From a virus: 28,291 nt of DNA. Where the stretch lies: IMG/VR virus record IMGVR_UViG_3300026201_000011, positions 1-28,291 of that record, one strand, 5' to 3'. This document shows positions 4,374 to 8,532 of this stretch, one piece after another (within the stretch, counting starts at the first letter, position 1; every line of letters begins with the position of its first letter). The translations under genes were made by a program, and so were the position numbers. Under the pieces are notes generated by a model, which ran no database searches, was not told the DNA's origin, and worked only from the letters and a program-made list of their open reading frames with translations.

Positions 4374-4832
4374 TTAATTTAGAAGCTCAGGCTTCTCCTC
4401 CATGCTTTCGTTTAGTTTATCAATGATAGACTCGACATCAACGGCCTTCTTGACTTCGACTGTGGTCTTCTTGGTTTCAGTTTTATCCACTTCCTGTTTG
4501 GAATAGGTGGAACGATAGTTAAACTTGTTGACCATCATAAAGGCATACAGTGAAGTATTAAAGGATTTGTTTTCTAGATTGTCTCTGCCGACCTGAATCC
4601 AATGTGCTTCTGATGCCTGGATACCCAGCTCAACAGTACGCTGGAAATCACTCTTGCGCTCATCCTTGAGCCACCGGTAGAACGTAGCTTTATGAATACC
4701 TAGGAACCTGCACACCTCAACAACAGTGGCACCTGTGGCAAACATATCAATAACTTTTTTCTTATTGGCGGTGTTCCATACACTTTTGTGTACTTCTTGG
4801 CCGCCCCTACGTTTAACCGGATTTGCAGCCAT
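4374..4832 (-). CDS. terS: Probable terminase small subunit (HTH DNA-binding)
   Basis: The 152-aa protein has a helix-turn-helix at about 35-57 (TVVEVCRFLGIHKATFYRWL), then a helical region with conserved-looking aromatic residues (SEAHWIQVGRDNL, SLYAFMMVNKFNYRSTY), and a charged C-terminal tail (Lys/Glu/Thr-rich). This arrangement of N-terminal HTH, central oligomerising helices and charged tail fits phage small terminases, which recognise packaging sites and load TerL. It lies in the same leftward operon as the large subunit, four genes upstream. A transposase-like HTH regulator is the main alternative, but context favours TerS. Confidence 0.72.
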   Translation of the reverse strand: MAANPVKRRGGQEVHKSVWNTANKKKVIDMFATGATVVEVCRFLGIHKATFYRWLKDERKSDFQRTVELGIQASEAHWIQVGRDNLENKSFNTSLYAFMMVNKFNYRSTYSKQEVDKTETKKTTVEVKKAVDVESIIDKLNESMEEKPELLN

Positions 4833-5575: not shown

Positions 5576-5773
5576 ATGGAACTAGATATAGATAAAGAAA
5601 CAGATAAAGATATATTAATATTATATATATAATATATATTATATAGAAGTATTAATATATATATTATAATAAGGGAACCCCTTACCTGTGGATAACTTTC
5701 TGATTCCCCTTTATAATCATAGATTTAACCTAATATTTACCTGTGGATAAGTATGTGGATAACTTGTGTATAA
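5576..5773. other. Candidate replication origin: AT-rich block plus DnaA boxes
   Basis: Three perfect DnaA boxes (TGTGGATAA, the complement of TTATCCACA) lie at 5687-5695, 5742-5750 and 5754-5762, all in one orientation, plus a one-mismatch box (TGTGTATAA) at 5765-5773. The last three are 11-12 bases apart, about one helical turn. The first two sit in identical 14-base contexts (TTACCTGTGGATAA). Directly to the left, about 5588-5672 is almost pure A/T, with many TATATTA-type runs, as expected of a DNA unwinding element. It lies between divergent operons, where an origin is plausible. Known biology: bacterial DnaA binds this box. Phage origin function here is inferred. Confidence 0.65.
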
Positions 5774-6055
5774 AAATATACCCCCCAAAAAATTTTGGGA
5801 CCCCTATTTTCTGAATGGGACCCCTACGATTGGCCGCTAAGCCAACGGCTATTCCATTCCCTATATACCAAAACACCCTATACAGAGATACACATACCAT
5901 ATACCACGTATACAGATACCAAACTCTTAGCAAAACGCTAGTGTGTTGTTAATGTCGTTTTTTTATTATGTGTTATGGGGCTACGCATCAGGATTCCTGG
6001 ACCTGGATCGCCCCGATCGACCCCCCGGAGTACCTTCGAAACGCTAATATTTGAA
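5774..6055. other. Intergenic stretch without a convincing gene
   Basis: Apart from the GGGACCC repeats (5797-5826) the stretch holds repeated ATACCA-like units near 5895-5925, two of the four AAACGCT copies (5933-5940, 6039-6046), a T-rich run (5958-5964), and a short perfect hairpin GATCG-ccc-CGATC near 6006-6018. Open frames here lack start signals and run across obvious non-coding motifs, so I call no gene. Confidence 0.5.
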
Positions 6056-6061
6056 TATAAT
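6056..6061 (+). promoter_or_regulatory. Possible -10 box of the structured RNA
   Basis: TATAAT at 6056-6061 would place a start near 6068, three bases before the first helix of the structured RNA (6071-6076 with 6099-6104). The -35 region is poor, so this is a weak call made mainly from position. Confidence 0.3.
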
Positions 6062-6067
6062 AAAACG

Positions 6068-7310
6068 CTTATCCAGGGTGTCAAGTTGCAATCTGGGTCT
6101 GGATTTGCTAATATGTTGTCACTGGATCGAGAGACGATTCAGAAGGTGCATAAAGAGTCGCACCTACGGTCAGCCCACGCGCCAGAGCAAAAAGGCGGGG
6201 ATCATACCTCAAGGTTAGGTCACTGGTATGCCTTGCGCTAGTAAGTGCCAGAAATGAGTGTCGGCCCCATGACTCCCACGGGATAGGGCAAAACCACGAC
6301 AAACGCTTACGACGATGTTCAAGGGCGACGATACCACACCAAGCCGGAGTGATACAAGCGAAAGCAAGTATCGCGATGTTTCAGCGAAATGCTGGTGGCG
6401 ATTAGTGAGGGGTTCGATAAGACCGAATTGGGCGGTAATACGACTAAGCACCTAAAATGGCTTAGCCGGGCTTGGGCCAGAGTTCAAGAGCACCTTGATT
6501 CCCAGGCCAGTTCGTGACCCGAAAGGGAACTGGTAACGGTAAGGGATATGCGTTGATTGAGAGGATCACACTTCCGTGATCTACAACGAGACAAAGGGAG
6601 AACCGCAACGATGGAAATCATCAAAATCGGAAAAGACCTCGGCACGGCAATCAAACGGACTGCGACTAGCGGCCTGAAATGGCAGGACAAGGTGCACGCT
6701 TTGTTCATATCCGCGGCTTGGCACTACGCTGAGCATGGGGATAGCACCTATCTGTCAATGCTTTGTCGGGAGATCACCAAAGTCAACGGGGTTAATAAGA
6801 CCAAACTTATTGGCTTCGTGTCTGAGGTGTGCCAGGTCAACTGGGATTCTAAGAAATTGACCTTCAAGAAGGCCAAGAAATCAGAGTTCAAGTTCGACCA
6901 GGATGAACTGTTTGCGCGCAAATGGTACGACTTCGAGACCGATGAAGTCATGTCTGTCTGGATGATGAAAAAGGCATTCGAGAGCATGACTAAGGCGATC
7001 GAGAAGCATGAATCTGAAGCGCGGATTCAGTACGTCGATGCTCTGGATGCTTACAATGCACTCCAGAACAAGATGGCAGAAGTGGCACATTTGGAAGAAG
7101 TCACTATGTGGTCTGATTCTGAAGCAGCCTAGTCAGCGGGGTTCACACTAGAAATAGTGTGATCCTCTCAGTCAACTCTATAAGGTAGACTGGATGCCGC
7201 TACTGTACCAAGATGGTATTCTAAGAAAGGCCTTTTCCGGTACTTGCAAGTATTCGAGAAGGTTTACTTAAAACAAAGGGCAAGTAGCAATTTAACCTTA
7301 TTTTCAACCT
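6068..7310 (+). ncRNA. Large ornate structured RNA candidate with an embedded ORF
   Basis: A dense series of short perfect helices is seen: 6071-6076/6099-6104, 6144-6149/6160-6165, 6351-6372 (GATAC..GC-GAAA-GC..GTATC), 6382-6394 (CAGC-gaaat-GCTG), 6422-6436, 6444-6465 (CTAAGC/GCTTAG), 6484-6498, 6507-6533 (CCAGTT..CCC-GAAA-GGG..AACTGG), 6564-6581, 7144-7161 (CACACTA-GAAA-TAGTGTG), 7206-7218, 7241-7286 (TACTTGC..GCAAGTA with an inner AAGTA/TACTT). Arms 6553-6571 and 7157-7175 are complementary over 19 bases with one G-U, enclosing the ORF at 6611-7132. Without the ORF it is about 700 nt. Size, phage setting and GAAA loops recall giant phage RNAs such as GOLLD or ROOL, but I cannot align it to either. 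Ends are approximate. Confidence 0.6.
6611..7132 (+). CDS. 173-aa protein nested inside the structured RNA, unknown
   Basis: An in-frame TTG-ATT start further upstream is possible, but the ATG at 6611 has AAAGGGAGA about 9 bases before it and is preferred. The protein has a helical N-terminal region (LKWQDKVHALFISAAWHYAEHGDSTYLSMLCREI), a middle basic/aromatic segment (VNWDSKKLTFKKAKKSEFKF), and a C-terminal Glu/Ala-rich helix that could be a coiled coil. I see no homing endonuclease signature (no LAGLIDADG, GIY-YIG or HNH), no HTH and no signal peptide. It sits between two long complementary RNA arms, so its translation may depend on how that RNA folds. A partner protein of the RNA is an attractive guess only. 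Confidence 0.8.
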   Translation: MEIIKIGKDLGTAIKRTATSGLKWQDKVHALFISAAWHYAEHGDSTYLSMLCREITKVNGVNKTKLIGFVSEVCQVNWDSKKLTFKKAKKSEFKFDQDELFARKWYDFETDEVMSVWMMKKAFESMTKAIEKHESEARIQYVDALDAYNALQNKMAEVAHLEEVTMWSDSEAA

Positions 7311-7326
7311 TAATCCAGGAGGTGCA

Positions 7327-7473
7327 ATGAGATACTTTGATCATGATGTGTCGGCCTGGGTAGAAGTGTTGCCTGCTGTGCCTGCGCCCAGGCGGAAGTC
7401 AAATCCAAAGATTGGCAAGATCAGGCGTGGTGCTGAGAGGCCTCGCGTTGCCCGAATGAGGTACAAAAAATAA
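7327..7473 (+). CDS. 48-aa basic protein, unknown
   Basis: A strong AGGAGGT at 7317-7323 lies 3 bases before the ATG. The frame encodes 48 residues and stops with TAA at 7471-7473. The C-terminal 28 residues are very basic (PRRKSNPKIGKIRRGAERPR). The N-terminus is acidic and aromatic (MRYFDHDVSAWVEVL). The stop lies inside the left arm of the poly-G-loop hairpin. It directly follows the structured RNA and may be co-transcribed with it. The basic tail suggests RNA or DNA binding; no family is recognised. Confidence 0.65.
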   Translation: MRYFDHDVSAWVEVLPAVPAPRRKSNPKIGKIRRGAERPRVARMRYKK

Positions 7474-7507
7474 CATTATGGTGGGGGGGTACTATAATGT
7501 CATTTTT
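7466..7507 (+). terminator. Hairpin with a 7-G loop, copy 1 (terminator or control element)
   Basis: ACATTATGGT (7473-7482) pairs with ACTATAATGT (7491-7500), one G-U included, around a loop of seven Gs and a T. Outer A-rich and T-rich arms (7466-7471 with 7502-7507) extend it past one mismatch. The T-run at the 3' side fits an intrinsic terminator, but the stem is AT-rich. A second copy about 15 kb away (22482-22523) shares most of the primary sequence, so it is likely a dedicated element. Confidence 0.5.
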
Positions 7508-7540
7508 GGTCTATTTTTCCCCTTTAAAATCAATGAGTTA

Positions 7541-7572
7541 GAGAGGGCAAATTTCAGTTTGTCCCCCCTCTC
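7541..7572 (+). other. Hairpin GAGAGGGCAAA / TTTG..CCCTCTC in the intergenic stretch
   Basis: GAGAGGG (7541-7547) pairs with CCCTCTC (7566-7572), and CAAA (7548-7551) with TTTG (7558-7561), leaving TCCC (7562-7565) as a bulge. The six-C run at 7563-7568 is complementary to the G-loop of the hairpin at 7466-7507, so a loop-to-loop contact is possible. It lies in a gene-free stretch (7474-7694) that otherwise holds only the leader at 7595-7670. Confidence 0.4.
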
Positions 7573-7594
7573 GCTGGCACTACGGTCGGCAACA

Positions 7595-7670
7595 TATAAT
7601 TGAGGGTGTGCTCATTGAAATCGAGGGGAGAAGTCCTGAGCATGACTTCATCCGGTAAACTGCTCACCCT
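7595..7670 (+). promoter_or_regulatory. TATAAT box and structured leader before the early operon
   Basis: TATAAT at 7595-7600 predicts a start near 7607. The following RNA folds into an outer stem AGGGTG-T-GC (7603-7611) with GC-T-CACCCT (7662-7670) and an inner hairpin GAAGTC/GACTTC (7630-7635/7644-7649). TGCTCA/TGAGCA gives an alternative pairing. No good -35 is seen. The stretch 7620-7631 (ATCGAGGGGAGA) is the complement of a segment in the leftward leader RNA. The Shine-Dalgarno of the first early gene follows soon after. It may control entry into the rightward operon. Confidence 0.45.
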
Positions 7671-7694
7671 TTCACGTTAAACTATGGAGATATC

Positions 7695-7976
7695 ATGGAA
7701 AGAATGGAACTGTTGGTCGAGATGCTGGCTTGGGCTGATGTAAAGAACAAATTTCACAAGCGGATATATGACCGCGCAGTGGATGAGGACAGGGAGATAG
7801 ATGCGGAGGATCAGTCATGCAGGATGACTGTGTGGCATGACTTCAAGGTGGAATTGGAGGCTGAGATTCTAGCCGAGGCCAAGAGAACCAATGGATACCT
7901 AAGTGCTTGGGGTGAGGTGAAGAAGAGTCATAGACGAGAGGAGTATCCGTGGCTTAGAGACAGGGGGGAGGACTGA
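7695..7976 (+). CDS. 93-aa acidic/helical protein, first early gene
   Basis: The ATG at 7695 follows TGGAGAT at good spacing. The product is 93 aa, highly charged and helical, with regular Glu/Lys/Arg and several Trp (MLAWADVKNKFHKRIYDRAV; LSAWGEVKKSHRREEYPWLRD). Its TGA shares a base with the next ATG (TGATG). Being first in the long rightward operon it could be a host-takeover protein, but no family is recognised and no motif points to a function. Confidence 0.72.
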   Translation: MERMELLVEMLAWADVKNKFHKRIYDRAVDEDREIDAEDQSCRMTVWHDFKVELEAEILAEAKRTNGYLSAWGEVKKSHRREEYPWLRDRGED

Positions 7977-8179
7977 TGGAATTTACTTTTGAGGTGAGAA
8001 GATCAGAGATTGTTGACAAACTTGTGGGCAGCTGGACTGCAAGTGAGTTGAGGCGTGTCGCTGAGAAGATGGGTATGTCAGGCGACCTGGATACACTGAG
8101 GCGTCATGTAAAGTTTGCTTTAAAGATGCCGACGATCGAATGGAGAGAGGATGATGGTCGAGATCAGGCAGAATCTTGA
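7976..8179 (+). CDS. 67-aa protein, unknown
   Basis: The start codon overlaps the preceding stop by one base. The protein is 67 aa and mostly helical, with a segment that could form a small DNA-binding fold (ASELRRVAEKMGMSGDLDTLRRHVKFAL, about residues 22-49), reminiscent of SAP- or HeH-like two-helix motifs. That similarity is weak and from memory. The C-terminal end overlaps the next small gene by 26 bases in another frame. Confidence 0.62.
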   Translation: MEFTFEVRRSEIVDKLVGSWTASELRRVAEKMGMSGDLDTLRRHVKFALKMPTIEWREDDGRDQAES

Positions 8180-8297
8180 TGGCAAGTATGTCATTTGGGT
8201 AACGGATCAGTTTGGTGAGAGGTCATTGGTGTATTTCTCAGACTATCAGACTGCGCTGTGTTACAAAAACCATTTACATTCAAGGGGATACGAGTGA
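8154..8297 (+). CDS. 47-aa protein, paralogue of the 8483-8794 product
   Basis: Two adjacent in-frame ATGs (8151, 8154) follow GGAGAGAGG; the second has better spacing. The 47-aa product (MVEIRQNLDGKYVIWVTDQF...) aligns with the middle of the 103-aa protein at 8483-8794: VEIR at the start, GKYV versus GRYV, and TALCYKNHL versus NAICYKNYL at the end. This similarity supports it as a real gene, and the pair as a small duplicated family. It looks like a compact beta-beta-alpha fold. Function is unknown. Confidence 0.65.
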   Translation: MVEIRQNLDGKYVIWVTDQFGERSLVYFSDYQTALCYKNHLHSRGYE

Positions 8298-8365
8298 TTC
8301 TACTAGCAATATCTGTTTTCCTGGTAGTCATTATGTTGTGGCTGATGACAGAAACAATTCTCTAA
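8294..8365 (+). CDS. Possible 23-aa single-helix membrane peptide
   Basis: A GTG at 8294 overlaps the preceding stop (GTGA), with AAGGGG about 8 bases before it. The 23 residues are almost all hydrophobic (ILLAISVFLVVIMLWLM), forming one transmembrane helix, and end TETIL. The frame stops just before the strong GGAGGG of the next gene. The coupling and clean composition make it plausible, but a peptide this short could occur by chance. Confidence 0.4.
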   Translation: MILLAISVFLVVIMLWLMTETIL

Positions 8366-8376
8366 ACGGAGGGCTT

Positions 8377-8532
8377 ATGAGCAGGACAGTGAGGCGTAAT
8401 CCAGTAGCAAAGAACGCGGGCCAGAACAAGGCCGGGACACACAAGCCTGCCAAAGGTAAGGGATCATACCGAAGGAGGGACAATGACCGAGATATCCGAG
8501 AGCAGCAAACTGAAAGAGTTTGCTATGAATAG
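8377..8532 (+). CDS. 51-aa very basic protein, unknown
   Basis: GGAGGG at 8369-8373 precedes the ATG at 8377. The product is 51 aa, rich in Arg, Lys and Asn (MSRTVRRNPVAKNAGQNKAG; GSYRRRDNDRDIRE), probably disordered, suggestive of nucleic-acid binding. It overlaps the following gene by 50 bases in another frame, which is more than typical here and lowers confidence slightly. The frame is open further upstream, but the strong ribosome site decides the start. Confidence 0.58.
   Translation: MSRTVRRNPVAKNAGQNKAGTHKPAKGKGSYRRRDNDRDIREQQTERVCYE

Follow-up and report, generated by a model that had tools for sequence, protein, structure and literature searches.

The window, a 28,291-base stretch of DNA that constitutes the uncultured marine podophage record IMGVR_UViG_3300026201_000011, is organized into two divergent gene blocks. 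The late genes, including those for a terminase-large-like protein (TerL, 1129–2790) and the terminase small subunit (4374–4832), run leftward, and the early and replication genes run rightward, with an intergenic region of ∼5.4–6.1 kb separating the two. Among annotated phages, TerL has a single, weak relative. The GC-skew minimum of the window falls within this intergenic region, as do several copies of a DnaA-box-like repeat, TGTGGATAA; together, the skew minimum and the repeats place a likely replication origin here. To the right lie a promoter-like site, a noncoding structured leader (about 6115–6600), and an ORF of the phrog_1448 family flanked by the two arms of a predicted helix (Table 1).

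Table 1. Features of the leader RNA, the enclosed gene, and their surroundings
Feature	Position	Strand	Remarks
DnaA-box-like repeats, TGTGGATAA, several copies	5687–5770		between divergent gene blocks, at GC-skew minimum
Sigma-70-type promoter, TTGCAA-N17-TAATAT, 8/12	6086–6114	+	best-scoring promoter-like site
Leader hairpin P1 (CTGGAT/ATTCAG)	6122–6142	+	3 double-compensatory changes vs L004/L005 (UGGGAA/UUCCCA)
Leader hairpin P2, loop AUAAAGAGUC	6144–6165	+	2 double changes; loop part of [AU]A[AG]G-N(0-3)-GUCGC motif
Central leader domain	6201–6418	+	several double-compensatory pairs, window vs L004/L005
Central domain, closing helix	6201–6210/6409–6418	+	
Central domain, stems	6218–6238/6317–6340, 6241–6247/6304–6310, 6259–6264/6297–6301	+	
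Central domain, hairpins	6266–6288, 6349–6374	+	first within 6259–6264/6297–6301 stem; second a GAAA hairpin
3′ leader domain	6441–6535	+	hairpins 6441–6468, 6469–6508, 6509–6531 (CCCGAAAGGG loop)
5′ arm of ORF-spanning helix	6552–6572	+	21 bp, 95% complementary to 7156–7176
5′ local hairpin (GGATCAC/GTGATCT)	6563–6582	+	rival partner of 5′ arm; predicted in nine of nine lineages folded
ORF, 522 bases, 173 aa, phrog_1448 (annotated unknown function)	6611–7132	+	profile match E 4e-17
3′ local hairpin past stop codon	7140–7165	+	rival partner of 3′ arm; −17.6 to −19.6 kcal/mol, nine of nine lineages folded
3′ arm of ORF-spanning helix	7156–7176	+	start 24–28 nt past stop codon in every member

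Relatives of the locus were identified through the ORF, the leader, TerL, and a hairpin. An ORF search returned six IMG/VR records (L001–L006), in which the ORF product is 62% identical to that of the window, and a search with a leader pattern returned the same records together with one phage contig from an uncultured Dokdonia bin (L014). This contig is about 99% identical to L001 and is either mis-binned or a hint of the host. The leaders of L001–L004 are about 74–76% identical to that of the window. A TerL search gave L021, L024, L031, and L046; at the corresponding place, these carry a leader that cannot be aligned and the gene for a divergent phrog_1448 protein (profile E-values of 8e-4, 8e-7, 2.5e-8, and 1.5e-14, respectively). 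The 3′ hairpin of L021, L024, and L031, used alone as a DNA pattern, yielded three new members, L073, L083, and L086, each of which carries the promoter, leader, ORF, and helix; L072 and other unrelated matches to the hairpin pattern contain no leader, ORF, or helix and were set aside. A DNA comparison of the region with cultured phages showed no similarity, and a tblastn search with the ORF gave no match.

Comparison of the window with L021 reveals that the RNA and the gene belong to an exchanged cassette. The two are 85–88% alike in DNA across the terminase region and as far as position 6036, and similarity resumes at 8521; the intervening segment (6037–8520), comprising the leader RNA, the phrog_1448 gene, and a few small ORFs, is replaced in L021. 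The TerL proteins of this pair are 95% identical, whereas the phrog_1448 proteins are 20% identical and the leaders are unrelated. TerL of the window is 89% identical to that of the L004-like records, yet the cassette is common to both. Since the cassette differs at 95% TerL identity and is shared at 89%, the RNA and the gene travel together. Most lineages, including those with a swapped cassette, retain the ∼100 bases directly upstream of the leader (5941–6040), which contain a T-run and GGAGTACCTTC and are a possible site of exchange or regulation.

AlphaFold models of the ORF product have a mean pLDDT of ∼77 (77.5) and a pTM of 0.58. Fold searches with these models found no match in the PDB, and the BFVD matches were all uncharacterised podophage proteins. 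With a model of modest confidence that lacks a solved relative, any RNA-binding role is guesswork. The order of elements in the model, three helices and a β-hairpin, is apparently winged-helix-like; it has no significant structural match, and a winged-helix fold is not claimed. In most members, the folding of the coding sequence itself is stronger than that of dinucleotide shuffles (z of −1.1 to −5.1, mean of about −3).

A sigma-70-type site is located 516–698 nt upstream of the ATG in nearly every member. It matches the promoter consensus at 12/12 positions in L073, at 11/12 in L083 and L086, and at 8/12 in the window, where the forward promoter is weak, falling below the threshold of the promoter scan and not listed by it. 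From this site the RNA would start at about 6120. A strong leftward sigma-70-type promoter (TTGACA-16-TATTAT, 11/12; minus strand, 6084 to 6057), which the scan does list, adjoins the start of the leader. On the 3′ side of the rightward promoter, the motif [AU]A[AG]G-N(0-3)-GUCGC is found 449–613 nt upstream of the ATG in the window, L004–L006, L021, L024, L031, L046, L055, and L057. L083 and L086 contain a CATATAA variant, and the motif was not found in L073 or in the cultured phages tested. In L059, L060, L061, L066, L069, and L015 (cultured Autographiviridae, Vibrio phages), a noncoding gap of 500–1100 nt precedes phrog_1448; these gaps contain host-type promoters, at about −520 and −380 in most, and no helix.

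A previous reading of this DNA, made from the sequence alone, had described short perfect helices, four GAAA-type loops, and a G+C content above that of the flanks, surrounding a 522-base ORF. The ORF is present, as are the loops (GCGAAAGC, 6358–6365; CAGCGAAATGCTG, 6382–6394; CCCGAAAGGG, 6518–6527; CACTAGAAATAGTG, 7146–7159), and the G+C content is 0.51–0.52 in the region compared with 0.32 upstream and 0.46 downstream. The short helices also exist, but they do not exceed chance by themselves: the folding energy of the leader gives z-scores of −1.0 (6115–6551) and −1.6 (6050–6611), coding controls span +0.35 to −2.5, matching the leader values, and the L024 leader stands at +1.3. With folding energy this ordinary, short helices alone prove nothing, and z-scores of this kind were dropped as uninformative about structure. 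No reading frame is conserved in 6115–6610, as 1- and 4-base indels separate the window from L004.

Covariation proved more informative. Double-compensatory pairs were counted with RNAalifold and compared with those in column-shuffled alignments (80 shuffles for the window and L004); the lineages do not fit one full-length leader alignment. For the window and L004, z is −6.05, with 19 double-compensatory pairs against 6.2 ± 2.2 expected and a maximum of 12 in the 80 shuffles, and for the window, L004, and L005, z is −7.1, with 30 pairs against 13.4 expected and a shuffle maximum of 20. Values of −4.9 and −2.8 were obtained for L031/L024 and L083/L086, respectively, and the L083/L073 pair, for which the alignment is too divergent, has fewer double-compensatory pairs than the shuffled mean. 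Control stretches, consisting of the ORF and eight other aligned stretches of the genome, range from +1.0 to −2.2. The leader scores more weakly on its reverse strand (z of −3.8), such that the forward strand is favoured. RNAalifold applied to the leaders of the window, L001, L003, L004, and L014 predicts 155 pairs, 18 of which are changed on both sides. As judged by these compensatory changes, the noncoding leader is a structured RNA. The sequence-only reading had held that its proposal would fall if homologues lacked covariation; covariation is found in them, with RNAalifold and shuffled alignments used in place of R-scape. Its other refuting condition was codon-level selection across 6068–6600, against which the frame-breaking indels between the window and L004 argue. 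One pairing predicted by RNAalifold, between 6068–6103 and about 6522–6545, was rejected: its 5′ side falls within the promoter region, and the local hairpin at 6509–6531 competes with it.

Part of the central domain of the leader is swapped for unalignable sequence in L005 and L006. The three hairpins of the 3′ domain contain 2, 5, and 1 double-compensatory pairs, and a covariance model built on 6440–6540, R1, matches L073 (E of 2e-4) and L083 (E of 0.014), in both cases where it would be expected, directly ahead of the 5′ arm. The E-value for L083 is near noise by itself, because a second match in L073, on the opposite strand, has an E of 0.013; it is the position of the L083 match that speaks for it.

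The strongest feature of the locus, absent from the sequence-only reading, is the helix that spans the ORF. Its arms form the longest inverted repeat of the region and lie 583 nt apart, with the whole 173-residue ORF between them. When the 155 nt before the start region were searched against the 110 nt after the stop codon, with 100 shuffles per member, a helix of 18–26 bp was found in all 12 members tested, the window included, and in each member none of the 100 shuffles was as good. The 5′ arm begins 49–70 nt upstream of the ATG in these 12 members. Across nine distinct sequences, 96.4% of the cells are paired and 14 of the 20 pairs are changed on both sides, and at most 1 in 500 shuffles is as high as the real helix on any measure. 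Sliding the arms by 1–3 columns lowers the pairing to 33–50%, with 1–5 pairs changed on both sides, a comparison that overstates the contrast because the arms were chosen for pairing; the fixed arm position and the 100-shuffle search are less exposed to this bias. A looser duplex score left L024 and L057 undistinguished from shuffles, and the stricter search separated both. L046, with the 3′ arm supplied by L090, is one further case, judged by eye. The helix is missing in 14 of 14 cultured phages that carry phrog_1448, in agreement with the earlier, looser duplex test.

Each arm of the helix also has a rival partner in a local hairpin (Table 1). Since the two local hairpins are alike in sequence, part of the long-range complementarity is automatic; the outer 10–12 bp of the helix extend beyond the hairpins. 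The long-range pairing is predicted to be 8–27 kcal/mol lower in energy than the local hairpins with the cost of the loop not counted, and closing a loop of about 560 nt could cancel this advantage in L004 and L005. The conserved 3′ end of the element is at about 7176–7180, and in L001–L006 the start of the next gene lies a short distance past the 3′ arm. The span of 6068–7310 given in the sequence-only reading is too wide at both ends, as 6068–6114 is promoter region and 7182–7310 is missing in L001–L006. The missing stretch, which runs from 7182 to about 7310–7320, contains a 19-nt overlapping palindrome at 7231–7262. With covariation in the leader and a covarying, gene-enclosing helix in nine distinct sequences, the central proposal of that reading, that a protein gene lies inside a large structured RNA, is supported. 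Comparative evidence of this kind makes it very probable that both the RNA and the gene-spanning helix, conserved and in a fixed position around the gene, are real.

These features suggest how the element may work. A host-type promoter, immediately to the right of the likely origin, would start a transcript, the first 430–590 nt of which would fold into a multi-helix RNA before the transcript runs on through the phrog_1448 gene. The long-range helix would join the stretch before the gene to the stretch past the stop codon, looping out the gene. Together with the two competing local hairpins, it could form an RNase III-type processing stalk or a closed mRNA loop, either of which would set both the stability of the looped gene and its translation. 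The folded leader may persist as a stable RNA, to which the encoded protein possibly binds. RNA and gene are inherited and exchanged together. In this scheme, it is the co-transcription, the processing or translational control, and the RNA–protein partnership that we infer. Action in cis is the simplest reading, because the helix is placed around the start and the stop; that the helix acts on the gene it loops out, through a processing stalk or closed loop, is a tentative proposal, with the balance leaning slightly against it. For the statement as a whole, namely a new RNA class with a gene-spanning helix that acts in cis as proposed, we regard the case as evenly poised. A further reading, which we consider unlikely, is that the cassette produces from one transcript both a large RNA and its partner protein, with the mRNA closed via the start and stop regions; the need for its two halves to match would have the cassette exchanged as a unit, and exposure to the host or to competing phages would make it vary fast.

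The element could instead be a trans-acting, ornate RNA of the GOLLD/ROOL type, possibly a multimer, in which the gene is a passenger inserted in the last hairpin loop. The similar size, the phage setting, the GAAA loops, and the variable domain are compatible with this idea, and the linkers of GOLLD sometimes hold tRNAs (PMC12286853). However, a search of the window and its relatives against Rfam 15, at gathering and at relaxed E-values, gave no credible family match, leaving GOLLD, ROOL, and group I and II introns unsupported. The sequence-only reading had also been unable to match the RNA to any of them. No tRNA was found in the window, the gene family is constant in the members tested, and the RNA and gene are exchanged together. 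A GOLLD/ROOL-type RNA is thus not expected, although it deserves some weight. A DNA-level element, with inverted repeats that form a cruciform or play a role in replication, packaging, or cassette exchange, would account for long inverted repeats that flank a gene inside an exchanged segment adjoining the likely origin. This explanation is improbable: the G-U pairs within the helix speak for RNA, the covariation is better on the transcribed strand, a structured leader lies upstream, and the repeats keep a fixed position with respect to the start and stop codons. Slightly less probable still is an ordinary 5′ leader in which the helices are mostly chance folds and the flanking helix is the sole real feature. 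The ordinary folding energies of the window and L024 leaders would fit such a leader, but the threefold excess of double-compensatory pairs between the window and L004, with control stretches at the null, and the detection of distant members at the right place by the R1 model argue against it. A structured RNA that holds an ORF in a loop recalls group I and II introns, for which this arrangement is typical, but a self-splicing intron or other ribozyme with the ORF in a peripheral loop is very improbable: the group I and II models gave no match even with relaxed E-values, the next gene begins shortly after the 3′ arm, no gene is split, and the ORF encodes a phrog_1448 protein rather than a homing endonuclease or reverse transcriptase.

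To our knowledge, only a few large structured RNAs have been described from phages, and GOLLD and ROOL are without a described function. A search of open-access papers found nothing on an element such as this one and, judged against Rfam 15 and that literature, the RNA appears to represent a new class of large structured RNA. Many GOLLD RNAs exceed 800 nt, a member is known from a marine metagenome, and the 5′ region is less conserved; ROOL is often found near tRNA islands (PMC12286853). Similar to GOLLD, the RNA of the window is a large structured phage RNA of marine occurrence with a gene enclosed, a tRNA in the linker in some GOLLD RNAs; in contrast to GOLLD, it has no covariance-model match and no tRNA array, encloses a protein gene of one family, and is variable throughout. 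ROOL is likewise a large ornate phage RNA of similar size, but the RNA of the window does not match it and is located near the likely origin, ahead of an early gene. Group I and II introns with ORFs share with it a structured RNA and a protein gene in a loop; here, the 5′ side is noncoding, a separate ORF follows the 3′ arm, and neither a split gene nor an intron-type protein is present. In the processing stalks of rRNA and the RNase III sites of T7 early mRNA, long-range or local helices enclose an RNA unit and serve as RNase III cleavage sites. A long, near-perfect helix that brackets a unit is likewise predicted by comparison in the 12 members, at 18–26 bp, but it brackets a single protein gene adjoining a large folded leader, and its cleavage is putative. 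The phrog_1448 genes of cultured Autographiviridae encode the same protein family in the same early position, with host-type promoters about 400–570 nt upstream in several; unlike the window, the 14 cultured phages tested have neither the ORF-spanning helix nor the leader motif. If the helix controls expression, the element would be a clear phage case of long-range pairing across a gene that is kept by compensatory mutation, and it offers handles that GOLLD and ROOL lack: a conserved RNA helix that spans the entire gene, a named partner gene, and the joint exchange of RNA and gene.
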